Shown here: positions 189 through 12,015 of the stretch, piece after piece
How the letters are laid out: each line of letters begins with the position of its first letter
Numbering within the stretch: position 1 is the stretch's first letter
Assembly: GCA_031270525.1 (NCBI GenBank)
Contig: JAISXN010000150.1
Coordinates: 1-12,015 of the forward strand
Length of the DNA: 12,015 bases
DNA from: Candidatus Symbiothrix sp.
Lineage (GTDB): Bacteria > Bacteroidota > Bacteroidia > Bacteroidales > Azobacteroidaceae
Direction of reading: 5' to 3'
Translations under genes and position numbers: made by a program
The notes under the pieces: generated by a model
Told to the model about the DNA's origin: nothing
The model's database searches: none
The model's input: the letters and a program-made list of their open reading frames with translations, nothing else

Positions 189-1610
189 TCATTTACGAAG
201 CAAAAAATCCCCCATAGCTTCCGCCGCCTTCCGCCCCGAATCCAGGGCGCGAACCACCAAACTCGCTCCGGTAGTAACATCCCCGGCTACAAAAACTTTT
301 GCCACCGATGATTCATTCGGTTTCACGGCCGCCACATTTCCGCGGGCGTCGTATTTCACGCCCAAATCGTCCAGCAAACCTTCATGCACCGGTTGCGTAA
401 ATCCCATGGAAAGCAATACCAAATCGGCCGGAATAACTTCGCGGACGCCGGTTTCTTTCATCGTGAAACGACCGGATTCGTCTTTTGTCCATTCCACGTT
501 AACGACTTCCACGCCGGTTACTTTCCCTTTGCTTCCGATAAAACGTTTGGACGCCAGCGACCAACGGCGCGTAACTCCTTCTTCGTGGGAGCTGGACGTT
601 TTTAATATATTCGGATAATGGGGCCAGGGTGTATCGGGATTCTCTCCCACAGGCGGCTGAGGAAGGATTTCTATCTGCGTCACGCTCGCCGCTTTCCGGC
701 GAACAGACGTTCCGACACAATCCGAACCGGTATCTCCGCCGCCGATTACCAGCGCTTTTTTGCCTTTGGCCGAAATCTGCTCGGCAACCGGAATCGTTTG
801 TCCGGCGACAATGCGATTCTGTTGTTTCAAAAAATCCAGGGCAAAATGAATGCCTTTCAAATTCCTTCCCTCGATGGGTAAATCGCGTGGAACTCCCGCG
901 CCCATCGTCAGACAAATCGCTTCGAACGAGGAAAGTAACTCATCGACGGAAAGGTCTTTTCCGACTTCCGTATGGGTCTCAAAAATAATGCCTTCCGCTT
1001 CCAGAAATTTCAAACGCCGGTCGATAATCCCCTTGCTCAGTTTGAAATCGGGGATTCCCAAACGCAGTAAACCGCCAATGGCTTCGTCTTTTTCATAGAC
1101 CGTTACCAAATGACCTTTCCTGTTCAGCATATCGGCGGCGGCCAGGCCGGCAGGTCCTGAACCTACGACAGCTACTTTTTTACCTGTCCGGATTTTAGGC
1201 GGATAAGCTTTCACAAACCCTTCCAAAAAAGCATGTTCCGCTATCGCCGCCTCGTTTTCGCGAATCGTCAAAGGCTGATGTTGCATGTTCAACACACAAC
1301 TTTTTTCACACAATGCGGGACATACCCGGCCTGTAAACTCCGGAAAATTATTTGTGGCATTCAACACTCGGTAGGCTTCGAACCATTTTCCCTTGTACAG
1401 CAAATCCTGCCATTCGGGAATCAGGTTGCTTAAAGGACAGGACCAATGACAAAAAGCAACCCCACACTCCATACAGCGGGAGGCTTGCAGCATCCGGTCT
1501 TCCATGTTTAAAGTCTGCTCCACTTCACTGAAATCGGCAATCCGTTCACGTACGGCACGATAGCCGGCTTCTTTTCTATTTATCGTTAAAAATGCTTTTG
1601 CGTTCCCCAT
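189..1610 (-). CDS. gltD: Glutamate synthase (NADPH) small (beta) subunit
   Basis: GltD takes electrons from NADPH onto FAD and passes them through iron-sulfur centres to GltB, where 2-oxoglutarate and glutamine-derived ammonia become glutamate. The 473-aa length matches the family (about 470). The N-terminal domain carries cysteines for two 4Fe-4S clusters: C46, C49, C54 and C58 (CMECGVAFCHWSCP), then C97, C101 and C105 (RVCPALCEKSC). An FAD-binding Rossmann motif VAVVGSGPAGLAAA spans about residues 146-159, followed by EKDEAIGG. The NADPH-binding fold has VIGGGDTGSD at about 288-297. The C-terminal FAD contact is VFVAGDVTTGAS at about 439-450. The start is an ATG at 1608-1610. It is the second gene of the glt operon, 95 nt after the gltB stop, and that gap is an inverted repeat reaching the start codon, with no Shine-Dalgarno sequence. 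The terminus is TGA. Related oxidoreductases share this fold, but adjacency to gltB fixes the assignment. Confidence 0.97.
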   Translation of the reverse strand: MGNAKAFLTINRKEAGYRAVRERIADFSEVEQTLNMEDRMLQASRCMECGVAFCHWSCPLSNLIPEWQDLLYKGKWFEAYRVLNATNNFPEFTGRVCPALCEKSCVLNMQHQPLTIRENEAAIAEHAFLEGFVKAYPPKIRTGKKVAVVGSGPAGLAAADMLNRKGHLVTVYEKDEAIGGLLRLGIPDFKLSKGIIDRRLKFLEAEGIIFETHTEVGKDLSVDELLSSFEAICLTMGAGVPRDLPIEGRNLKGIHFALDFLKQQNRIVAGQTIPVAEQISAKGKKALVIGGGDTGSDCVGTSVRRKAASVTQIEILPQPPVGENPDTPWPHYPNILKTSSSHEEGVTRRWSLASKRFIGSKGKVTGVEVVNVEWTKDESGRFTMKETGVREVIPADLVLLSMGFTQPVHEGLLDDLGVKYDARGNVAAVKPNESSVAKVFVAGDVTTGASLVVRALDSGRKAAEAMGDFLLRK

Positions 1611-1710
1611 ATTAATTGAGAATTGAGAATTGAGAATTGAGAGTTGAGAATTAAGAATAATCTACATAGGCAATTAATTCTCAATTCTCAACTCTCAATT
1701 CTCCATTAAT
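1611..1710. repeat. Inverted repeat built from TGAGAAT heptamers filling the gltB-gltD gap
   Basis: On the + strand, five tandem heptamers (TGAGAAT, one variant TGAGAGT) lie at 1617-1651. Four heptamers in inverted orientation (ATTCTCA, with ACTCTCA and ATTCTCC variants) lie at 1677-1704. Both arms are bordered by ATTAAT, at 1611-1616 and 1705-1710. Positions 1624-1654 pair with 1674-1704 at 28 of 31 positions around a 19-nt loop. The gltB stop codon (1706-1708) lies inside the outer border, and the gltD ATG begins at 1610, directly next to it. In the gltBD transcript this would be a long A/U-rich hairpin immediately before the gltD start. It could be a non-autonomous mobile repeat, a slipped-strand expansion, or a structure that tunes gltD translation or mRNA stability. 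Confidence 0.9.
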
Positions 1711-4700
1711 AATCTGATTCAACCATTTCTATTTTCTTTTTTATTGCTTCCATTTTCTCTTCCTGCAACACTTTTTTATATTCAATCGGCGTGATTTTGA
1801 TGAAATGTTTGAGGTATTCGTCCCAATTGTCCAGAATCTTTTTCGCCAAAGCACTTTGCGTATAATAAAAATGTTGCGAAATCAGACGGTTTAATTCCAA
1901 ACTGTCCGATTTATCTTCAATCAGCGTCAGTTCAACCATCTCCATATTACAGAAATAATCGAAATTGCCTTTCATATCCAGGACGAAAGCCAATCCGCCG
2001 CTCATACCCGCAGCGAAATTCTTTCCGGTCGAACCCAAAACTACGGTTCGCCCACCGGTCATGTATTCGCAGCAATGGTCGCCTGCGCCTTCCACAACGG
2101 CAATGGCGCCCGAATTTCTCACGCAGAAGCGTTCCCCTACCCGACCGTTGATATATACTTCCCCGGAAGTTGCACCATATAATAAGGTATTGCCGGCTAT
2201 GATGTTGTCTTCGGGAGCAAACATGCCGGATTTGGGCGGAACAAGCGAGATGCGTCCACCCGAAAGCCCTTTGCCGAGGTAATCGTTGGCTTCGCCTTCC
2301 AGGTAAAAAGTGATTCCGGCAGCAAGGAAAGCGCCGAAACTTTGTCCGGCCGAGCCTTTGAAGCTAACGGTAATCGTACTGTCCTGCAAACCTTTGTTTC
2401 CGTAACGTTTGGCAATTTCGCCCGATAACATAGCGCCCACCGCCCTGTCGGTATTCGCAATTCCGACGTTCATTTCCACCGGAAGCGACTTTTCGATGGC
2501 GGGTTTGTTTTTACGAATCAACTCCCTGTCTAAAACCTGTTCGATTTTATGGTCTTGTTTTTTCGTGCAACGAATATCGTTTCCGTTATCTACAAAATAA
2601 GTCAATTTGGAAAAATTCAACTTAGCCGTTTTATCATTGATTTGCAAATCTTTCCGAATTTCTATCAAGTCCGAGCGGCCAATGATTTCCTCCATGCTCC
2701 TGAAACCCATTTGCGCCAGGTGTTCGCGGACTTCCTGCGCAAGGAAGGTGAAAAAGTGAAGCAAGTATTCGTATTTCCCCTTGAAGCGTGCGCGAAGCCT
2801 TTCGTCTTGCGTTGCAATGCCCACCGGACAAGTATTCAAATGGCATTTACGCATCATCACACAACCGAGGACAATCAAAGCGCTGGTCGCAAATCCAAAT
2901 TCTTCCGCGCCCAGCAAAGCCGAAACAATAATGTCCTTGCCCGACTTCAACTGACCGTCGGTTTGCAAACGGACAAATCCGCGCAAATCGTTCAGGACTA
3001 AAGTTTGTTGTGTTTCCGCCAATCCGAGTTCTCCCGGAATACCCGCATGTTTGATGGAACTCATCGGGCTGGCGCCTGTTCCGCCTTCCGAACTGCTGAT
3101 GAGAATCATATCTGCTTTGGCTTTAGCCACACCTGCGGCAATTGTTCCCACGCCCGTTTCCGCAACCAGTTTCACGGAAATTTGTGCGGACGGATTGATG
3201 TTTTTCAAATCGAAAATCAATTGCGCCAAATCTTCAATCGAATAAATATCGTGGTGCGGAGGCGGCGAAATCAAAGTAATTCCCGGAATGGAGTGGCGCG
3301 TTTTTGCAATGACTTTATCTACTTTAAATCCCGGTAACTGACCGCCTTCGCCCGGCTTAGCACCTTGTGCGATTTTGATTTGCAACTCATCGGCGTTAAT
3401 CAAATATTCGGCAGTCACGCCAAAACGTCCCGAAGCAATTTGTTTGATGGCCGAACGACGGCTTAAGCCGTCCTCGCCGGTGTTGAAACGCGCCGGGTCT
3501 TCGCCGCCTTCGCCGGTATTGCTTTTTCCGTGAAGGATATTCAGGGCGATGGCCATCGCTTCATGCGCTTCCTTACTGATAGACCCGAAAGACATTGCCC
3601 CTGTAACAAAGCGTTTTGTGATTTCATCGACCGGTTCTACCTTGGAAATATCAATCGGTTTTCGTTTGTAAGTCATAAAATCGCGCAGGAATACCGGTCG
3701 CATTTTGTTATCGACAATATCGGTATATTCCTTGAATTTATTGTAATCGCCCAGGCGAACGGCTATCTGCAATTTGGAAATGGTTTCGGGATTCCACGAA
3801 TGGTATTCGCCTTCTTTACGGTAGGTATAAATACCTGCATTCTGCACGGTATAAGTGGATTGCAGTTTGAAATCGGGAACGCCGTGGTCATCAAAAGCTT
3901 CATGATGCGAAAGCAAAGCGTCTTTGGCAATATCGGACAATTCGACGCCGCCTATCCGCGAAGTCATTTCCCGGAAATAAGTATCCAGAACTTTCTGGCT
4001 AATGCCGACAGCCTCAAAAATCTGAGCGCCCCGGTAACTCCACAAAGTGGAAATGCCCATTTTCGAGAGTACTTTTAACAGGCCTTTGGATACGGCTTTG
4101 ATATAATTTTTTTCCGCCGTATGGTAATCCAATTGTATCTCGTGCAAATTCACTTTTTCATACAAAACGGCAAAAGCCATATACGGATTCACAGCCGTCG
4201 CCCCGAATGCAAACAAAAGGGCAAAATGATTGACTTCACGGGCTTCGGCGGTTTCAACCACAATGGCAATCTGCATTCTTTTCCGTTTTTCAATCAAGTG
4301 GTGGTGAACTGCCGAAACAGCCAGTATGGAAGGAATTGCCGCATGTCCGGCGTCCACTCCCCTATCGCTCAAAATGATATAATGATAACCTTCATCTACG
4401 GCTTTTTCGGCACGCTGACAAAGATTGTTCAAAGCGTCGGACAAAGATTTAACGCCTTTGGAGGATGAGGTGGCGTCAAACAGCATCGGAACAGTGAGCG
4501 ATTTAAAGCCTTTGTAACCCAAATGCGTCAAAATATCCAAATCAATATTGTTGATAATCGGCACCGGCAATTTTACCATTTTACACAATTCCGGCGAAGG
4601 TTCGAGCACATTACCGTCCTGACAGCCGATATACAGCGCCAGAGACATGACCAATTCTTCACGAATCGGGTCAATCGGCGGATTGGTTACCTGAGCGAAT

Positions 4701-6229
4701 AATTGCCTGAAATAGTTGAACATGCGTTGCGGTTTATCCGACAAAACAGCCAAAGGCGTATCGTTACCCATCGAGCCTATCGGCTCTTTTCCTTCAACGG
4801 CCATCGGGATAATCAATTTTTCGATGTCTTCCTGCGTATAGCCGAAAGCTTTGAGTTGCGCCGACTGGTTATCTACGTCATACCGGACTGTTCTTCCGGA
4901 AGATATATTGCTCAATGAAATCCGGTTCTTCGACAGCCATTCCCGGTAGGGATGAGCGGAGGCTAATTCCGCTTTCAATTCGGGGTCGTAGTACACTTTT
5001 CCTTTTTTGGTATCAATCATCAACATTTTGCCGGGTTGAAGACGCCCTTTTTCCTTTATTTCGGCGGCTTCAAACGGTAAAACGCCCACTTCCGAAGCAA
5101 TGACCATAATGTCGCCGTGCGTAATCAAATAGCGGGCGGGACGGAGGCCGTTCCGGTCAAGCATTCCTCCGGCGTAGCGGCCATCGGTAAACAATAAGGT
5201 CGCCGGACCGTCCCAGGGTTCCATGATGATACTGTTGTATTCGTAAAACGCTTTCAAATCGTCGGAAATCGGGTTTTTTTCATTCCAGCTTTCGGGTACG
5301 AGCATCGACATGGCGTGCGGAAATGAAATGCCCGCCATAATCAAAAATTCCAAAACATTATCTAAGGATGCACTATCGGACATTCCCGGTTGAATAATCG
5401 GAAACAATTCGTCTAATTTTCCCAATCCGGGGACTTTCATTACACTTTCACGCGCTTTCATCCAATAGCGGTTTCCGCGAATGGTGTTGATTTCGCCGTT
5501 ATGCCCAAGCAAACGGAAAGGTTGCGCCAAATCCCAACTGGGGAATGTATTGGTGCTGAAACGCGAATGAACCAATGCTAATCCGCTGGTAAAGTATAGA
5601 TTGGTCAGGTCGGTAAAATAATCGCGCAATTGCACGGAAGTAAGCATTCCCTTATACACAATGCGTTGCGTGGAAAGACTTACGATATAAAAACTTTTTT
5701 TGTCGGTCAGGGAAGATTTGAGGATTTTGTTTTCCATTTTCTTCCGGACGATATATAATTTCCGCTCCAAAACATCGGAACGGTCTTCGCCTACTATAAA
5801 AATCTGTTTGATAGCCGGCTCGTTCGCCCTTGAAATTTCGCCCAGAATATCGCTGTTGACCGGAACATCGCGGACGGCAAACATTTTCAGACCTTCCTGT
5901 TCGACGATATTTTGCAACACTTCCATATACAAAGAAGCCTGTTCGTCGCCTTTGGGGAGAAAAACCAGGCCTGTTCCGTATTTTCCCCGCTCGGGAACCG
6001 GAATACCTTGTAAAAGGATAAATTCGTGGGGGATTTGCAGGGTAATTCCCGCGCCGTCTCCGGTCTTGTTGTCGGCGCTTTCCGCTCCGCGGTGAAGCAT
6101 GTGTTCAAGCACCTGCAAACCTTTTTCTACAATATCATGCGACCTATTTCCATGTATATCAACCAACAAACCAACACCGCAAGCATCATGTTCATATTCG
6201 GGCCGGTATAAACTTGTATTATTAACCAT
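1706..6229 (-). CDS. gltB: Glutamate synthase (NADPH) large (alpha) subunit
   Basis: GltB hydrolyses glutamine in an N-terminal class II amidotransferase domain, channels the ammonia, and reductively aminates 2-oxoglutarate on FMN. The product from the ATG at 6227-6229 is 1507 aa, the usual GltB size. The nucleophile is C17 in EHDACGVG, so a 16-residue propeptide would be removed. The amidotransferase domain runs to about residue 430 (HSRFSTNTFPSW, HNGEINTIRGN, DRNGLRPARY) and the central domain to about 760. The FMN/synthase domain spans about 840-1210, including GAMSFGSISKEAHEA and SEGGTGASP. The 3Fe-4S cysteines are C1123, C1129 and C1134 (CVMMRKCHLNTCPVG). The C-terminal GXGXG beta-helix includes TGGRTVVLG and GMSGGLAFV. 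An in-frame TTG at 6266-6268 would add 13 residues but overlaps the promoter -7 element, so the ATG is preferred. Forms an operon with gltD. Confidence 0.97.
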   Translation of the reverse strand: MVNNTSLYRPEYEHDACGVGLLVDIHGNRSHDIVEKGLQVLEHMLHRGAESADNKTGDGAGITLQIPHEFILLQGIPVPERGKYGTGLVFLPKGDEQASLYMEVLQNIVEQEGLKMFAVRDVPVNSDILGEISRANEPAIKQIFIVGEDRSDVLERKLYIVRKKMENKILKSSLTDKKSFYIVSLSTQRIVYKGMLTSVQLRDYFTDLTNLYFTSGLALVHSRFSTNTFPSWDLAQPFRLLGHNGEINTIRGNRYWMKARESVMKVPGLGKLDELFPIIQPGMSDSASLDNVLEFLIMAGISFPHAMSMLVPESWNEKNPISDDLKAFYEYNSIIMEPWDGPATLLFTDGRYAGGMLDRNGLRPARYLITHGDIMVIASEVGVLPFEAAEIKEKGRLQPGKMLMIDTKKGKVYYDPELKAELASAHPYREWLSKNRISLSNISSGRTVRYDVDNQSAQLKAFGYTQEDIEKLIIPMAVEGKEPIGSMGNDTPLAVLSDKPQRMFNYFRQLFAQVTNPPIDPIREELVMSLALYIGCQDGNVLEPSPELCKMVKLPVPIINNIDLDILTHLGYKGFKSLTVPMLFDATSSSKGVKSLSDALNNLCQRAEKAVDEGYHYIILSDRGVDAGHAAIPSILAVSAVHHHLIEKRKRMQIAIVVETAEAREVNHFALLFAFGATAVNPYMAFAVLYEKVNLHEIQLDYHTAEKNYIKAVSKGLLKVLSKMGISTLWSYRGAQIFEAVGISQKVLDTYFREMTSRIGGVELSDIAKDALLSHHEAFDDHGVPDFKLQSTYTVQNAGIYTYRKEGEYHSWNPETISKLQIAVRLGDYNKFKEYTDIVDNKMRPVFLRDFMTYKRKPIDISKVEPVDEITKRFVTGAMSFGSISKEAHEAMAIALNILHGKSNTGEGGEDPARFNTGEDGLSRRSAIKQIASGRFGVTAEYLINADELQIKIAQGAKPGEGGQLPGFKVDKVIAKTRHSIPGITLISPPPHHDIYSIEDLAQLIFDLKNINPSAQISVKLVAETGVGTIAAGVAKAKADMILISSSEGGTGASPMSSIKHAGIPGELGLAETQQTLVLNDLRGFVRLQTDGQLKSGKDIIVSALLGAEEFGFATSALIVLGCVMMRKCHLNTCPVGIATQDERLRARFKGKYEYLLHFFTFLAQEVREHLAQMGFRSMEEIIGRSDLIEIRKDLQINDKTAKLNFSKLTYFVDNGNDIRCTKKQDHKIEQVLDRELIRKNKPAIEKSLPVEMNVGIANTDRAVGAMLSGEIAKRYGNKGLQDSTITVSFKGSAGQSFGAFLAAGITFYLEGEANDYLGKGLSGGRISLVPPKSGMFAPEDNIIAGNTLLYGATSGEVYINGRVGERFCVRNSGAIAVVEGAGDHCCEYMTGGRTVVLGSTGKNFAAGMSGGLAFVLDMKGNFDYFCNMEMVELTLIEDKSDSLELNRLISQHFYYTQSALAKKILDNWDEYLKHFIKITPIEYKKVLQEEKMEAIKKKIEMVESDY

Positions 6230-6265
6230 TTTTTCAACGTCTCTTTTTTTATATTTTTCCGGCTG

Positions 6266-6273
6266 CAAAGTTA
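6266..6273 (-). promoter_or_regulatory. Bacteroidetes-type -7 promoter element of the gltBD operon
   Basis: On the minus strand this reads TAACTTTG, an exact match to the Bacteroidetes primary-sigma -7 consensus TAnnTTTG. It lies 36 nt before the gltB ATG, so transcription would start near 6258-6260 and give a leader of about 30 nt. The leader is A-rich (GGAAAAATATAAAAAAAGAG), as is usual for translation initiation in this phylum. No convincing -33 TTTG/TTG box is seen at the usual distance, so strength is uncertain. Confidence 0.72.
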
Positions 6274-6324: not shown

Positions 6325-8709
6325 TTAAAATGACGGCATTTTGTATTTTTCCCCTTCCACCACATTGTAGGTTCGTTTATAATTTTTGAGGAAAGTTTTG
6401 GCTTCTTCTTTTTTTCCCAGCTTATTGTAAGCTTTTATACAAATATTCAATACTTCTTCATTCAAAGGTTCGATTGCGAAGAAAGTTGCGGATATGGAAA
6501 TTATTTTCTGATATTGTTTTTTCTTACATAAATAAAGGATATACTCTTTCAGCAAGCGTTCCAGTTTTTCTTCTTCTTTTGATTTATAATGGTCGATTCC
6601 GGCGTCGTGTATGCTTAAAAGGAACGAACCGTTACGGACAATGGCGTAAAGTTGTTCCATTAATAGAGGATACGATTCGCGGTCGGCATGTTGCAAACGA
6701 TTCAGCAAGCCGGTATACACTAAGTAATCGCAATAAAAAGACCGGTTGAATGTGAAAAACCATTGGGAATTTTGATGAACCAACTGAATGTCGCCAATGT
6801 CTTCCAATATATTCCGCAACCGGTTTATCGTTACGCCGCGAGTACTTTTTGCTTCGTTTACATCTTTATCCGGCCATAAAGTCTGCGTAAGTTTTTCGGT
6901 AGAAATTCCGGTTTCATCTTTTGTATTCAAAAGTATAAGCGAAAACAAAACTTTTAATTTTGTACTGAAACGATAGGTTATGTCCACTCCTTTCTTGTCA
7001 TATACCATAAAGGCGCCAAAAACATAAACCGCCGATTGTTTTTGTATTTTCCCGTCATATTCATCTTCTTCATCTTCGCGGGATAAACGGAACATTTCGG
7101 GTTTTTGGGTGATTGAGCGTGTCAAAAAAACAATTGCAACGATAAGAAAAGCAATAAGAGCAGCTATCCATGCAAGTATGCGGTAGGGTTTCGCCAAAGG
7201 GGCGGAATTTTCCAACTGCGATTTTGTAATGGACGGCGATAACAAAGAATAAACCAAAACACGGGTTTCGTTTTTGTCCGAGAAATCACGTATCACAACA
7301 TAAAATTCGTGCATCTCTCTGTTGTAAAACAAATTGACGGAAGTATTATTCATTCCCTCCGACGAGAAATTGATGGAATCGCTTACAAGCTCGTATTTCC
7401 CGTTTTGTAAGTCGAAACGGTATAAATATCCGAAAGTCTTCGGTATATGATGTGCATAGCAAAAGGCATAGAAATATTTTTTATCTTCGCTCAGTATCAG
7501 ATTGTTGCCCGGAATAAATTCGATTGTGGGAATCTCATGCAGCCGCCATAAATTGGTAATCGTTTTTTGTTTGAGATTCAGCACATACAAATCGTAAAGG
7601 TTGTGCCCGCTGTGTTCCTGTTTCCCCGTTTCATTCCCGAATCCGCCGAAAATCAATTTTTCATCCGGCAGAACTCCGTCGCCTACTGCGGAATAAAAAC
7701 GCGGCGTTATCCGGTCGCCTTTGAACTCGACAGGTTCCCATTGCCGGGTTTCCTTGTCGTAGCGGGATATTCTGTCGGAATAAGAATGATTGCTATATCC
7801 TCCGAATTGATACAGGTCGCCGGCGGATGAGTAGAAAACGTTGCTGTGCAACAAATGTTGTTCGTCAACCGGAACATCACTCTTTATTTCCGCAATTTCG
7901 GCACGGTCGTAGCGTGGATAATAAGACAGCACGGAGTCGCCGCCGTTGATAACAATTCGATTATCCGCTTCGTCGAAACTTACCGACGCCTTGCCGGAGG
8001 TCCGGAACGATGATTTTTCCTGCCAGTAAAAGTGTTTGTTAATAATCCAACCGGGATTTTTTACCCGGGCTTTCACTTTACCTGTTTTGTCGTAAGCAAA
8101 TTCGCCTTCCGATTCTTCTAAGGGAAAGGAAAATGATTTGCCTTCTTCCTCCTGAATATGCAAGTTCCCGATTAGCATTTGCGGTACGTCCATATTCAAA
8201 CCGTACAGTCCGAATGTGAACTGAAGAAAAGAAGGATTTTCAAGCCCGATAGGCGCACAGGTATAGGTAGAATCTCTAACGGTAATACTTGCTTTGTCGT
8301 CTTTTAAATCGAAACAGATAGTAAGATGTAAGGACTTTTTCTTGTTAATATCTTCTTTTGTAATAGGAACCTGGACGGATTTATGAGTAATAGGGCTATG
8401 GAAATCGAGATACATGCTGTCGATTCCGTAGAAGTTGACAAAAACAAATTCGACTTCCTGTTTTTGTTCGTTAATCGCACGGAAAATATGTCCGAACTGG
8501 TTGGCATCCCAAATCGACAAATCAAATCCAATCGTGAATGAGTTTTCAAATTTCTGAAGTTTATTGCCGAAAAGTACAAGCGACGTTCTTTTATCTACTT
8601 TTTCCGCACTGGAAGTAAATAAAATTCCGCCTAACGACTCTTCCGAATAAGAATAAAAAGAGCAGATGCAGAAAAGGATAATTGTATTTAATCTCCTTAT
8701 TATTTGCAT
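6325..8709 (-). CDS. Membrane-spanning one-component regulator: LamG-like plus Kelch-propeller sensor, one TM helix, SARP-like winged helix
   Basis: I do not recognise a named gene; the architecture is readable. Residues 1-22 (MQIIRR plus a hydrophobic stretch) form a signal peptide. Residues about 40-225 look like a LamG/concanavalin-type beta-sandwich. Residues about 285-490 carry Kelch-type blades: LYQFGGYSNHS with RYDKETRQWEPV (299-327), then KLIFGGFGNE with LYVLNLKQKT (351-383), then LYRFDLQNGKYELV (429-442). A single transmembrane segment is ILAWIAALIAFLIVAIVFL (511-529), followed by a charged EDEEDEYD linker. Residues about 560-655 form an OmpR/SARP-type winged helix (STKLKVLFSLILL, LTQTLWPD, GVTINRLRNILED). 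Residues about 660-790 are helical, like the TPR/BTAD part of SARP regulators. The order predicts a periplasmic sensor and a cytoplasmic DNA-binding domain. It follows the GtaA-like lipoprotein gene after 2 nt (TAA, TC, ATG), with no Shine-Dalgarno sequence, implying translational coupling. Ligand and targets are unknown. Automatic annotation might call it galactose oxidase-like or Kelch protein, which would miss the regulator half. Confidence 0.9.
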   Translation of the reverse strand: MQIIRRLNTIILFCICSFYSYSEESLGGILFTSSAEKVDKRTSLVLFGNKLQKFENSFTIGFDLSIWDANQFGHIFRAINEQKQEVEFVFVNFYGIDSMYLDFHSPITHKSVQVPITKEDINKKKSLHLTICFDLKDDKASITVRDSTYTCAPIGLENPSFLQFTFGLYGLNMDVPQMLIGNLHIQEEEGKSFSFPLEESEGEFAYDKTGKVKARVKNPGWIINKHFYWQEKSSFRTSGKASVSFDEADNRIVINGGDSVLSYYPRYDRAEIAEIKSDVPVDEQHLLHSNVFYSSAGDLYQFGGYSNHSYSDRISRYDKETRQWEPVEFKGDRITPRFYSAVGDGVLPDEKLIFGGFGNETGKQEHSGHNLYDLYVLNLKQKTITNLWRLHEIPTIEFIPGNNLILSEDKKYFYAFCYAHHIPKTFGYLYRFDLQNGKYELVSDSINFSSEGMNNTSVNLFYNREMHEFYVVIRDFSDKNETRVLVYSLLSPSITKSQLENSAPLAKPYRILAWIAALIAFLIVAIVFLTRSITQKPEMFRLSREDEEDEYDGKIQKQSAVYVFGAFMVYDKKGVDITYRFSTKLKVLFSLILLNTKDETGISTEKLTQTLWPDKDVNEAKSTRGVTINRLRNILEDIGDIQLVHQNSQWFFTFNRSFYCDYLVYTGLLNRLQHADRESYPLLMEQLYAIVRNGSFLLSIHDAGIDHYKSKEEEKLERLLKEYILYLCKKKQYQKIISISATFFAIEPLNEEVLNICIKAYNKLGKKEEAKTFLKNYKRTYNVVEGEKYKMPSF

Positions 8710-8711
8710 GA

Positions 8712-11201
8712 TTAATTAGATTGAGAAATCAACTTGTCTTCCATCATTTTAATAAAATAACCGCCCAACACCGACCTCGCACGGAACGACACGTGTTCCG
8801 GACGGTCTGTCCAATACCAGTCGGACATGGGAATCCGGTCTGTCGTTTCGTTTACAAAACAATAAAGCGGAGCAATAAACTGCCGGAAATCGGAGGTGTT
8901 GCGCGACAGTGCGGCAGACCAAACTATCCAGTCGGCTTTTGTGTAAAGTTGTTTACTGTTCAACGGCAAGCCATATTTGTTCTGTTTAGTCAGATAATAA
9001 GCAATTTCTTTCTCAGGCACTTCGTGGGGGAAAACATTTATTTTCATAATCTTGTCCCAGACCAAGTTGTACTTTTGGCTCCATGTTCCGGCCTGGTCGA
9101 ACGCAAAACGGTAATGGTCTCCGTCGCTCGCTTTTTTCACCCATTCCAAAGCCATTTTACGCGCCATGGCTGTATATTTTTGTGCGGTATCATTTTGTTT
9201 CAACATATCGGCCAGACGTCCGTAGGAAGCAATGCCCAGAATAGCTTTGATGGAAAGATTGGCATTGTGTGCGGAACTTCCGGTAAATACATCCGTATTT
9301 TCCTGGTAATCAGGGTCGAATCCTTTTTTCACAAGAAAATCAGCCCATTGCGACAATGTTTCCCAATGTTGTGAAGCGTATCCGGCGTTTCCTTCCATTG
9401 TGGCAATTGCAGCACAGAGTATCAGCATATTACCGGATTCTTCAACGGGAAGGACGGGTCCTGCAACTTGTCCTTCGGCAATGGGATAAATGCCGACGTC
9501 GTGCGGAGCATAAGGATGTTTCCATTTCCCGCTTTCCACATAATAAAAAATGGGGTTCAACATTCCTTTCAGTAAATCGACATTATATAACAAAAACAAG
9601 GGCGAAGAAGGATAAGTGACATCGACGGTTGCAATCGAACCGCTGCTGTAATTTTCTTTCGAGAGAAACAGCAAATCGCCGTTAGGAGCTTGCAGTAATT
9701 TGTGGGCGGATACCGATTGCCGGTAAGCCAGCGCACACAGTTCGGCATATTCCTCGCCTCCACAGCGGGCTGCTTCTTTCATAAGTCTGTTGTCGAATCT
9801 GTCGCAGTCTTTTTTCAACGATTTATATTCTTTCGCCGCACTGGAGAAAAGTTCATAAATATTCCTGTCACCCTTTCTGTTCCAATAAGGACGAAGATTT
9901 TCGCCGAAATACCGGATGGAATAAATATCGTCGTATCCCAGCATAAAATAGCCGCTTGCCGTTTTCTTTACTTTTCCCAAAGAACGGATAAAAGCAAGCC
10001 TGTCCTGTTCATCGGGCGAAGCCGGATTATTTCCGGAAAAAGAACCTGTATTGCGGAAATCCGCCCGCATGGAATAAGGATTTCCTGTTGCCGGTTGCGT
10101 ATATTCTTTTTCTGCACACAAATAAAAATATCCCCAGTCGATACGTACATTATCGCCTTTTTTCCCTAAGATATGCTGTTTTTTACTTCCTGTTTTCAAA
10201 TATAATAAGTTGTCTTTCTCGAAAGTTTCGCTTTCGCTTGGCTGGTTAAGTACATCCAATGCCCATGAAGTGCCGGCTTCCAGATATAAATCGACCGTAT
10301 GAAATTGGGAATCGTTGGAGGAAATATGATAAGTGATATAGTTGACCGGACGGGATAACAAGTCGAGATTGTCCATTAACAGAGGCGCTGTAAAAACCAG
10401 TTCCATATCCACCGGCCCGCAAGTGAAACGATACCGGGTTTGGGTAGGAAGCGCTTCGACGGAATTTTGCACTGCCGTTTCCGCAAAACAGGTTTGTCCT
10501 TCTACTTCCACATTCAGTCCGAAATCGAGATAGGCCTCTCCTCCTGTGTTTCTACAATGAGCTGCGATGACATTTTTCCCTTCCTGCAATGACGAGCGGA
10601 CTTCTTCCGAAAGTTCCAGCAACGCGTTTTCCCTGCATATTCCGTTTACCCTGATTACTTCTATTCCATTGAGATAGATTTCCACGTCGTCGTCGTGGGA
10701 GTATTCCAAAAAGACTTTTTTGTCATGAAGGTCATCATCCAGGGTAAATTCCCTTCTGACCCAAATATGTTCACTTTCCCATGCCGTATTGATGTTTTGG
10801 TTTTCACGTTTTCCGAAAGCGGCTTTTCCATGCTTCCACAGGTTGTCGTCGAAATCCCTCGTCATCCAATTATCATGCGGCTTCTCATATATATACCGGG
10901 CGTACCATTCCTCGTTATCACTCATTTTTTCCACCGGTTTGAACAAGTTGCTTTCAACGCCCATAAACCGGAATATCTTTCCGTCGACACGGACAACTCC
11001 CAACAAAGGAAATTCTTTCCCCGTCCAATGGGACAATTGCTTATTATATAAGGTATCGCCAAACAACCAGGCGTTGGTATAAGTATCAATGTTAATCAAA
11101 GGATATGCAGGCGCCCGCAACCGGCTTGAAATGCGGGATTCGTTTTGCTCCGTACATGCACACACAATAAGAATTAATAGGAGGTAAATACTGTTTTTCA
11201 T
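8712..11201 (-). CDS. Glutaminase-A-like (DUF4964-DUF5127-DUF4965-DUF1793) lipoprotein with inserted galactose-binding-like domain
   Basis: The 829-aa product begins with a lipoprotein signal peptide (MKNSIYLLLILIVCAC), lipobox V13-C-A-C16, so it should be anchored in a membrane facing the periplasm or surface. Residues 25-85 match the DUF4964 style (LRAPAYPLINIDTYTNAW, HWTGKEFPLLG). Residues about 95-235 are a galactose-binding-like beta-sandwich (DFDDNLWKHGKAAFG, IWVRREF, VEIYLNGIEV, GKNVIAAH). The DUF5127-type domain follows at about 250-475. The GtaA six-hairpin domain runs to the end, with hallmark motifs PHDVGIYP (566-573), LPVEESGNMLI (584-594), YNLVWDK (711-717), YGLPLNSKQLYTKADWIVW (743-761) and SDWYWTDR (793-800). 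Fungal members are called glutaminase A. The bacterial ones sit in glycan-related contexts and the (alpha/alpha)-barrel fold is glycosidase-like, so the substrate is open. It starts at an ATG at 11199-11201, is first in the operon, and is followed after 2 nt by the membrane regulator. Confidence 0.92.
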   Translation of the reverse strand: MKNSIYLLLILIVCACTEQNESRISSRLRAPAYPLINIDTYTNAWLFGDTLYNKQLSHWTGKEFPLLGVVRVDGKIFRFMGVESNLFKPVEKMSDNEEWYARYIYEKPHDNWMTRDFDDNLWKHGKAAFGKRENQNINTAWESEHIWVRREFTLDDDLHDKKVFLEYSHDDDVEIYLNGIEVIRVNGICRENALLELSEEVRSSLQEGKNVIAAHCRNTGGEAYLDFGLNVEVEGQTCFAETAVQNSVEALPTQTRYRFTCGPVDMELVFTAPLLMDNLDLLSRPVNYITYHISSNDSQFHTVDLYLEAGTSWALDVLNQPSESETFEKDNLLYLKTGSKKQHILGKKGDNVRIDWGYFYLCAEKEYTQPATGNPYSMRADFRNTGSFSGNNPASPDEQDRLAFIRSLGKVKKTASGYFMLGYDDIYSIRYFGENLRPYWNRKGDRNIYELFSSAAKEYKSLKKDCDRFDNRLMKEAARCGGEEYAELCALAYRQSVSAHKLLQAPNGDLLFLSKENYSSGSIATVDVTYPSSPLFLLYNVDLLKGMLNPIFYYVESGKWKHPYAPHDVGIYPIAEGQVAGPVLPVEESGNMLILCAAIATMEGNAGYASQHWETLSQWADFLVKKGFDPDYQENTDVFTGSSAHNANLSIKAILGIASYGRLADMLKQNDTAQKYTAMARKMALEWVKKASDGDHYRFAFDQAGTWSQKYNLVWDKIMKINVFPHEVPEKEIAYYLTKQNKYGLPLNSKQLYTKADWIVWSAALSRNTSDFRQFIAPLYCFVNETTDRIPMSDWYWTDRPEHVSFRARSVLGGYFIKMMEDKLISQSN

Positions 11202-11228: not shown

Positions 11229-11236
11229 CAAAGGTA
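11229..11236 (-). promoter_or_regulatory. Bacteroidetes-type -7 promoter element of the GtaA-like lipoprotein/regulator operon
   Basis: The minus strand reads TACCTTTG, a full match to TAnnTTTG, ending 27 nt before the lipoprotein ATG. About 21 nt further upstream is CTGTG, a weak counterpart of the -33 TTTG box. The predicted leader is about 20 nt and lacks a Shine-Dalgarno sequence. No second promoter is apparent between the two genes, so the regulator is probably co-transcribed from here. Nearby operator repeats for autoregulation are not obvious. Confidence 0.68.
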
Positions 11237-11370: not shown

Positions 11371-11405
11371 ACAAAAAAAATCGTGGCGAGGATGCTTTTT
11401 TTTGT
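11371..11405. repeat. A8/T8 inverted repeat (10-bp perfect stem, 15-nt loop)
   Basis: ACAAAAAAAA at 11371-11380 is exactly complementary to TTTTTTTTGT at 11396-11405, with a GC-richer 15-nt loop between. The right half overlaps the left edge of the 46-bp inverted repeat by 6 bp, so the two structures would compete. Its role is unknown. It may be part of the same mobile or degenerate segment as the IS-end-like hairpin. Confidence 0.55.
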
Positions 11406-11503
11406 GCATTGGGTACACGGTGATTTCGACAGGCTCAATCACCGGCGGCCTCACAAACCGGTGATTGAGCCTGTCGAAATCACCGTGTACCCAATGCACA
11501 AAA
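11400..11503. repeat. Perfect 46-bp inverted repeat with nested hairpins (REP/BIME-like)
   Basis: The left arm 11400-11445 and right arm 11458-11503 are exact reverse complements over 46 bp, separated by a 12-nt loop (CGGCCTCACAAA). Each arm contains its own stem: CGGTGATT/AATCACCG at 11418-11425 with 11437-11444, and again at 11459-11466 with 11478-11485. Each inner stem encloses TCGACAGGCTC or its complement GAGCCTGTCGA. The TTCGACAGGCTCA core is a recurring palindromic repeat core in many bacterial genomes (general knowledge, not checked). Two REP-like units placed head to head form a BIME-like unit. It starts 20 bp beyond the stop of the glycosyltransferase gene and could protect or end that transcript. 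Neither side has the T-tract placement of a classical intrinsic terminator. Confidence 0.92.
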
Positions 11504-11523: not shown

Positions 11524-12015
11524 TTAATATTTAACACTCTTGTGGTGATCGCCGGGAAGTTGGGTCAATTGTTTTTTTAACTTCAGTAAAAACGGAATAA
11601 GTTTTTTCTGAACGCCTAACGGCATAAGCGAAAAAAGATAAAAGGAAAAAAGGATCGGACTTTTCCAAATGTCTTTATCCTGTAAATAAGCAGGGTTCAA
11701 AAAATGTTTGATATATTCTTCATAAACTCCACCGATTACCCAGACACAAAAAATCAACCGTTGCGCACAAAATTTTTCTTTTATTTTAATTCGATAAATC
11801 GGTTCTAATGTTTGTATTTTATTGTATGCATTCGAGAAAAAGGAATCCAATGCCAATACAATGTGGATATTTTTTGTCCCATCGTAATTTAAACCGAATG
11901 AAGTGGGGCGTCCATGATGAAAATAAGTAATATCGGATAAATCGCAGCAACTATGAACGATTGAAAATATTTGAAAAGATATATTAACATCTTCCAAATA
12001 TCGTCCCGAATAGTA
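11524..12015 (-). CDS. C-terminal part of a probable family 2 glycosyltransferase, 5' end outside the window
   Basis: The frame stays open from the window edge at 12015 to a TAA at 11524-11526, giving 163 residues. It has no start inside the window: the TTG at 11995-11997 is just an internal leucine codon, since the frame continues upstream with YYSGRY. The visible beginning, GRYLEDVNISFQIF, resembles the acidic ED motif (catalytic-base region) of GT2 enzymes, and YFHHGRPTSFGLNYDGTKN resembles the following loop. The rest is mostly helical with hydrophobic patches (LIFCVWVIGGVYEEYI; LFSFYLFSLMPLGV) and a lysine-rich end, as in the C-terminal extensions of many Bacteroidetes polysaccharide GT2 proteins. 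A role in capsule, LPS or exopolysaccharide synthesis at the inner membrane would fit. The DNA is visibly more A/T-rich than gltBD, as is common for surface-polysaccharide genes. The identification is tentative because most of the GT-A core is not visible. Confidence 0.5.
   Translation of the reverse strand, partial: YYSGRYLEDVNISFQIFSIVHSCCDLSDITYFHHGRPTSFGLNYDGTKNIHIVLALDSFFSNAYNKIQTLEPIYRIKIKEKFCAQRLIFCVWVIGGVYEEYIKHFLNPAYLQDKDIWKSPILFSFYLFSLMPLGVQKKLIPFLLKLKKQLTQLPGDHHKSVKY

Follow-up and report, generated by a model that had tools for sequence, protein, structure and literature searches.

The gene at positions 6325..8709 (minus strand) of the window, the whole 12,015-nucleotide stretch of DNA that was analysed, is an intact ORF of 794 aa whose product has a predicted periplasmic LamG/Kelch sensor, a transmembrane (TM) helix and a cytoplasmic SARP module consisting of a winged helix and a BTAD. 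With a probability of roughly 80%, the protein is a transmembrane one-component activator of glycan-use genes or polysaccharide utilization loci, which follows the logic of SusR with a SARP as output. The domain anatomy, its conservation, the gene context, a repeat pattern and the co-occurrence of that pattern with the regulator were each established by computation; the gene context points to a carbohydrate as the ligand of the sensor. The outcome is a family of probable glycan-sensing regulators, apparently not described before, together with a concrete candidate operator.

The window is an entire contig of a 1.49 Mb assembly which is 53% complete. The genome contains three copies of the regulator family, and the closest named relatives are from Dysgonamonadaceae and Symbiothrix bins.

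Domain architecture and distribution

All features of the protein are encoded on the minus strand. A signal peptide (residues ~1-22, 8644..8709) is indicated by a helix at residues 2-19 of the structure model and by hydropathy. It is followed by a LamG/LNS-like beta sandwich (residues ~24-220, 8050..8640), a Kelch beta-propeller (residues ~224-495, 7225..8040), a TM helix (residues 507-530, core 511-529; 7120..7191), an OmpR/SARP-type winged helix (residues 556-655, 6745..7044) with its third helix at residues 617-638 (6796-6861), and a BTAD-like helical domain (residues ~656-790, 6340..6744). The sequence-only reading had proposed LamG, Kelch, TM and SARP-like domains in this order, and structure prediction and conservation agree with it. 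Its winged helix at residues 555-655 appears in the structure model at 556-655, and its TM helix at 511-529 is predicted by both hydropathy and the model. Alignments comprised 50 of the 99 relatives (A1) and 42 C-terminal pieces (A2).

In a fold comparison the C-terminal part has, over its full length, the winged helix and BTAD fold of the SARP activators AfsR and EmbR. In the predicted structure the OmpR-type winged helix leads straight into the helical BTA domain, the arrangement that identifies a SARP. Sequence searches are weak in this region (the Trans_reg_C and BTAD Pfam models remain below cut-off in the window protein, and a profile search of PDB reached AfsR only at E 0.47), so that the SARP identity of this part rests on its fold. 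AfsR and EmbR are soluble, come from actinobacteria and carry other accessory domains, whereas the SARP module described here is C-terminal, is preceded by a periplasmic sensor and a TM helix, and occurs in Bacteroidota. Within the BTAD region, residues 708-779 give a weak match to DUF4919 (PF16266), which at E≤1 is shared by 24 of 50 relatives.

Among solved structures, those nearest in fold to the propeller are protein-binding Kelch domains, as taken from fold lists where the absence of a family does not exclude that family. LamG and Kelch folds are also found in sugar-binding proteins. An NCBIfam search assigned no family to the window protein and gave only weak, sub-cut-off Kelch matches for relatives. 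The propeller folds would suit a regulator that takes its signal from a protein partner, with a SusC plug or envelope stress as examples, in place of a glycan, or one that acts as a repressor. Such a role is considered unlikely; in 4 of the 5 relatives scanned, models of sugar mutarotase or N-acetylneuraminate epimerase match weakly and below cut-off, which counts against it.

A DNA-binding domain and a TM segment are predicted in one chain, as in one-component transmembrane regulators. Pfam searches at E≤1 gave no match to histidine kinase, receiver or AraC-type domains in the window protein, as had been claimed for kinase and receiver, and neither of these two is among the 25 commonest of the 78 Pfam families matched by 50 relatives. 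Bacteroidota hybrid two-component systems, which according to sections of PMC3878776 are often linked to SusC/SusD genes, likewise carry a large periplasmic sensor, a TM segment and a DNA-binding end in one polypeptide; the window protein differs from them in these missing domains.

The closest known system in logic is SusR of Bacteroides. Sections of PMC3878776 describe it as a membrane protein that senses in the periplasm, binds DNA through a cytoplasmic C-terminal domain and activates glycan-use operons, report no significant similarity of that DNA-binding domain to other known ones, and give its predicted motif as a direct repeat with a long spacer. The same order of periplasmic sensor, TM segment and C-terminal cytoplasmic DNA-binding domain, beside glycan-use genes, is predicted here. 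Measured against that published description of SusR, the differences are the SARP output, the LamG and Kelch sensor and a 12-bp repeat period, and the KTAACCY half-sites reported below lie 5 bp apart and not at a long spacing. Transmembrane transcription regulators are widespread and enriched in Bacteroidota (parts of PMC10269533). Because SusR is so described and such regulators are widespread, the principle of a periplasmic sensor, a membrane passage and a cytoplasmic DNA-binding domain without a kinase is not new. The novelty lies in the domain combination and its candidate operator. ToxR and CadC carry their OmpR-type winged helix at the N-terminal side and are not known to have a BTAD; here the order is reversed, with the winged helix at the C-terminal side (residues 556-655). 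Common to all is a DNA-binding domain that works from the membrane in a single chain (for ToxR and CadC, parts of PMC10269533), and neither SARP nor Kelch occurs as a term in the main text of that source.

A protein search at E≤1e-3 listed 99 proteins, among them that of the window. Among 97 genomes (window's included), 28 have a regulator match at E≤1e-3, 24 of them strong and four weak and partial. Some gut Bacteroidota genomes carry several paralogues, and genome G005 has seven matches. Named genomes account for 48 loci, with Mucilaginibacter, Pedobacter, Puia, Parafilimonas, Paludibacter, Alistipes, Flavobacterium, Muribaculum and Melioribacteraceae among them. A query made of only the last 240 residues found 63 proteins, every one Kelch-annotated, among length-limited candidates in which short soluble relatives would be undetectable. 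A C-terminal profile run against 58 genomes found the same long architecture, besides fragments and a few weak partial matches. Open-access literature on SARP, ToxR-like or Kelch proteins together with Bacteroidetes, membrane or glycan loci yielded no paper on such proteins and no described regulon for close homologues, in line with the sequence-only reading, which knew of no characterised member with this domain order. The LamG/Kelch-TM-SARP proteins are apparently an undescribed Bacteroidota family.

Genomic neighbourhood

Upstream of the regulator lies the gene of a GtaA-type six-hairpin protein of 829 aa (8712..11201, minus strand; PF16334, PF17168, PF16335). The regulator ORF starts 2 bp 3' of it on the same strand, and because of this short distance the two genes are probably on one transcript. 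A 1520-aa ORF on the same strand begins 56 bp 3' of the regulator and is presumably the glutamate synthase large subunit; the two ORFs in 189-6268, both on the regulator's strand, are taken to resemble the small and large subunits of that enzyme. A functional tie between the glutamate synthase genes and the glutaminase-named neighbour was considered and dropped, as these genes are absent from all neighbour clusters with at least three members, and they are treated as unrelated. At the other end of the window, 11524-12015 holds an incomplete ORF of 163 aa or more, which matched nothing in Pfam or NCBIfam at E≤1.

From the 48 loci, the truncated L031, L039 and L049 were excluded from neighbour and motif counts, and L009, where there are no gene calls, additionally from the neighbour count. 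With the window included, this resulted in 46 sequences for motif scans and 45 loci for neighbours. Neighbours were grouped by BLAST clusters, and the families were named from examples scanned with Pfam. Within four genes of the regulator, SusC relatives occur in 24 of 45 loci, SusD in 22 and GtaA-type genes in 10. SusC is the immediate downstream gene in 16 of 45 loci, and a GtaA-type gene is the immediate upstream gene in 8 of 45, window included. No SusC was present among the genes examined in 21 of the 45 loci, several of which are on contigs that end early. Approximately 602 first-look SusC candidates were counted in 31.2 Mb from six genomes, roughly one per 52 kb, so that the adjacency of regulator and SusC is well above background.

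Further neighbours named by Pfam are GH92, GH125, GH2, GH3 and a GH43-GH95 protein. Many of 20 additional loci, which hold more distant paralogues from the window's family and order, have similar neighbour types. The neighbourhoods of the regulator are polysaccharide utilization loci. Isolates of Mucilaginibacter, Pedobacter, Puia and Parafilimonas have relatives beside SusC/SusD in their genomes, which makes the family testable. In L014 (17993-21044), susD is followed by the genes of a DUF3823_C protein and of a 728-aa protein without a Pfam match at E≤1e-5; both genes recur across Mucilaginibacter-type loci and are a lead to the glycan.

Candidate operator

Alignment of regulator-to-SusC intergenic regions showed a conserved TTAACCC-N5-TTAACCC-N5-TTAATAC within otherwise diverged DNA. 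A strict scan for two KTAACCY half-sites (at most 1 mismatch, spacers 0 to 20) covered the 46 loci (829 kb). At spacer 5, 37 sites were found in 26 of 46 loci (30 intergenic, 7 within called genes), many of them derived from related Mucilaginibacter loci; the remaining spacers in this range gave 2-9 each. Exact matches numbered 20 at spacer 5 vs 4 at all remaining spacers combined. A -7 box TAnnTTTG (at most 1 mismatch) follows the first repeat at a distance of 39 or 40 bp at 22 of the 37 spacer-5 sites, compared with 6 of 93 sites at other spacers, and at 22 of 26 hand-chosen strict sites. The strict pair adjoins the regulator in Bacteroidales, Mucilaginibacter, Pedobacter, Puia and Parafilimonas, and a Melioribacteraceae genome has it there with a single mismatch. 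A like layout built of TTAAY units is seen in some promoters of more distant paralogues. A triple GTAACCT repeat in L090 was set aside as an operator, since it apparently lies inside a coding sequence.

The general pattern is KTAAY-N7-KTAAY-N7-KTAAY-N10/11-TAnnTTTG, that is, three direct repeats with a 12-bp period, the third unit ending 8-9 bp before a Bacteroidota -7 box. In 64 loci at up to 3 mismatches, period 12 gave 43 matches in 30 loci with the box at 40 and 34 in 23 loci with the box at 39. Other box distances at this period gave 13-35 matches (35 at gap 36), a count that is raised because the AT-rich repeats match themselves; the box distance is less sharp than in the strict-pair scan. 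Periods 9-11 and 13-15 gave 1-15 matches at the distances tested in the same 64 loci. Of 20 promoter regions picked by hand, seven fit this general pattern with up to 3 mismatches (L034, L051, L112, L113, L116, L124, L125). On this sequence evidence the KTAAY triple repeat is the probable operator of the regulator, and if this is true, regulons can be predicted from sequence.

The described SARP sites are direct repeats with 11- or 22-bp spacing whose last repeat lies 8 bp from the -10 element, and the AfsR SARP dimer sits on a box overlapping the -35 element and contacts sigma region 4 (parts of PMC10936776). The putative repeats resemble those of the AfsR/EmbR group in being direct and in ending 8-9 bp before the -7 box; they differ in their 12-bp period, which was seen in relatives, the window having no site. 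Their position is the one described for SARP activators, and so argues against the repressor or protein-partner role raised by the propeller folds. That role has a second point in its favour, a zero-mismatch operator-like site (L025 6870-6917 / L152) that is set between a regulator gene and a divergent gene of sigma-70 type (209 aa, with the size of an ECF factor). Some regulators may feed into a sigma factor.

The pattern was then counted in eight genomes picked for carrying the regulator, at up to 1 mismatch and with the reversed pattern as control. It gave 18 matches vs 3 for the reversed pattern. Seven of the 18 are the known regulator-adjacent sites from which the pattern was built, and the 11 others are distinct from these, three of them overlapping earlier strict-pair matches. 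SusC (two), GH2, GH3, GH76, GH92 or a sulfatase follow 7 of the 11; the GH3 site falls in a called ORF of 75 aa, 90 bp ahead of the GH3 start. The remaining four precede a GtaA-like fragment and a TIG-domain ORF, precede a Pfam-less ORF, lie at a contig end and lie inside a coding sequence (one each).

A scan of 97 genomes (window's included) was made with gap 39 only. The 24 genomes with a strong regulator match gave 26 matches in 11 genomes (controls 2), and the 73 others gave 11 matches in 9 genomes (controls 11), so that the pattern is present in 11/24 vs 9/73 genomes (Fisher p 0.001, gap 39 only) and 13 of the 24 have no match at this one gap. Within the window's genus it is present in 8 of 17 regulator genomes vs 0 of 21 without the regulator (Fisher p 0.0005). 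These tests and the count in the eight genomes are partly circular, as some pattern-shaping loci sit in the tested genomes, and genomes of the same genus are not independent. Genes were examined in 27 fetched loci for the 37 listed matches. Sites inside a called ORF were 1 of 17 (75 aa) in regulator genomes vs 6 of 11 in the others. The regulator-genome sites precede SusC, GH92, GH3, GH43 and DUF5128 propeller genes among others, some having no named downstream gene.

These counts also bear on whether the repeats belong to a different factor of the same loci, the membrane protein controlling something else. Binding of the repeats by the regulator is a prediction and the window's own copy is without such a site, which would fit a separate owner; the restriction of the pattern within the genus to regulator genomes, the recurrence of the strict pair beside the regulator from Bacteroidales to Melioribacteraceae, and the binding of SARP modules to direct repeats at this position make it highly improbable. 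Repression, protein sensing and a different owner are all less likely than activation by the regulator.

As an activator, the protein would bind, with its LamG/Kelch part in the periplasm, a glycan fragment imported by an outer-membrane system, and the single TM helix would relay this binding, probably as the chains dimerise or change their orientation. The cytoplasmic SARP module would occupy the three head-to-tail KTAAY repeats with their 12-bp period just upstream of TAnnTTTG (the half-site in the window's subfamily being KTAACCC) and, by analogy with AfsR, would contact sigma and recruit RNA polymerase to a promoter whose -33 element is poor. The targets would be SusC/SusD and glycosidase operons, neighbouring or distant. 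This raises the question of how a SARP could make its contacts with sigma and RNA polymerase from an anchored position in the membrane. In a broader proposal, somewhat less probable than the activator role and still favoured on balance, membrane-anchored SARPs are a further class of Bacteroidota glycan regulators beside SusR-like proteins, hybrid two-component systems and ECF/anti-sigma pairs. The LamG/Kelch head would read periplasmic glycans, the three-repeat operator would replace the -33 element at housekeeping promoters, and paralogue-specific half-sites would give each paralogue its own glycan loci.

The regulator copy in the window

The window contains no KTAACCY pair at up to 1 mismatch, and neither of its two promoter regions matches the general pattern at up to 3 mismatches. 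A possible -7 box, TACCTTTG (11229..11236, minus strand), lies upstream of the GtaA-type gene and has no KTAAY repeats with it there. When the upstream regions of seven GtaA-type genes were aligned, no block was common with the window. A KTAACCC operator was sought in the window and in the rest of its assembly and was not found; in this 53%-complete genome the strict pair gave three 1-mismatch matches vs 21 for controls. The general pattern at up to 3 mismatches was not in excess in the assembly (7 vs 14 for controls at gap 40, 11 vs 9 at gap 39). At up to 1 mismatch it occurs at two distinct places only, one of which is present a second time at the end of another contig, and in this assembly these matches alone stand out. 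The two places are upstream of SusC-SusD-DUF4998/5000-GH3 with a pectate-lyase-like gene, and upstream of GH2-GH95.

The regulator of locus L005 is 88% identical to that of the window. There, a called ORF of GtaA type has three perfect GTAACCC repeats at its start and heads a same-strand run in the order GtaA-type, small ORF, GH92, GtaA-type, regulator. The upstream part of such a run is missing from the window, and a single GtaA-type gene was found in the assembly. Upstream of that gene, 11400-11503 is a perfect inverted repeat with 46-bp arms and 12 bp between them, possibly a mobile element remnant or junction. Either the window copy has been displaced, or its target operon falls in a stretch that the assembly lacks. 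Taken together, the headed run in L005, its truncation in the window, the lone GtaA-type gene and the inverted repeat lend some weight to a displaced or decaying paralogue, whose ancestral L005-like operon was broken by rearrangement and whose present promoter is outside its own control. This is entertained as a tentative explanation; the gene is intact with a C-terminal part 87% identical to that of L005, and the missing genes may fall in the absent part of the assembly. Displacement of this one copy is compatible with the family acting as glycan regulators.

The GtaA-type proteins of the window and L005 are 94% identical across 602 residues, and the window's protein (8712-11201) has ~142 additional residues (~86-227) that are absent from the L005 relative.
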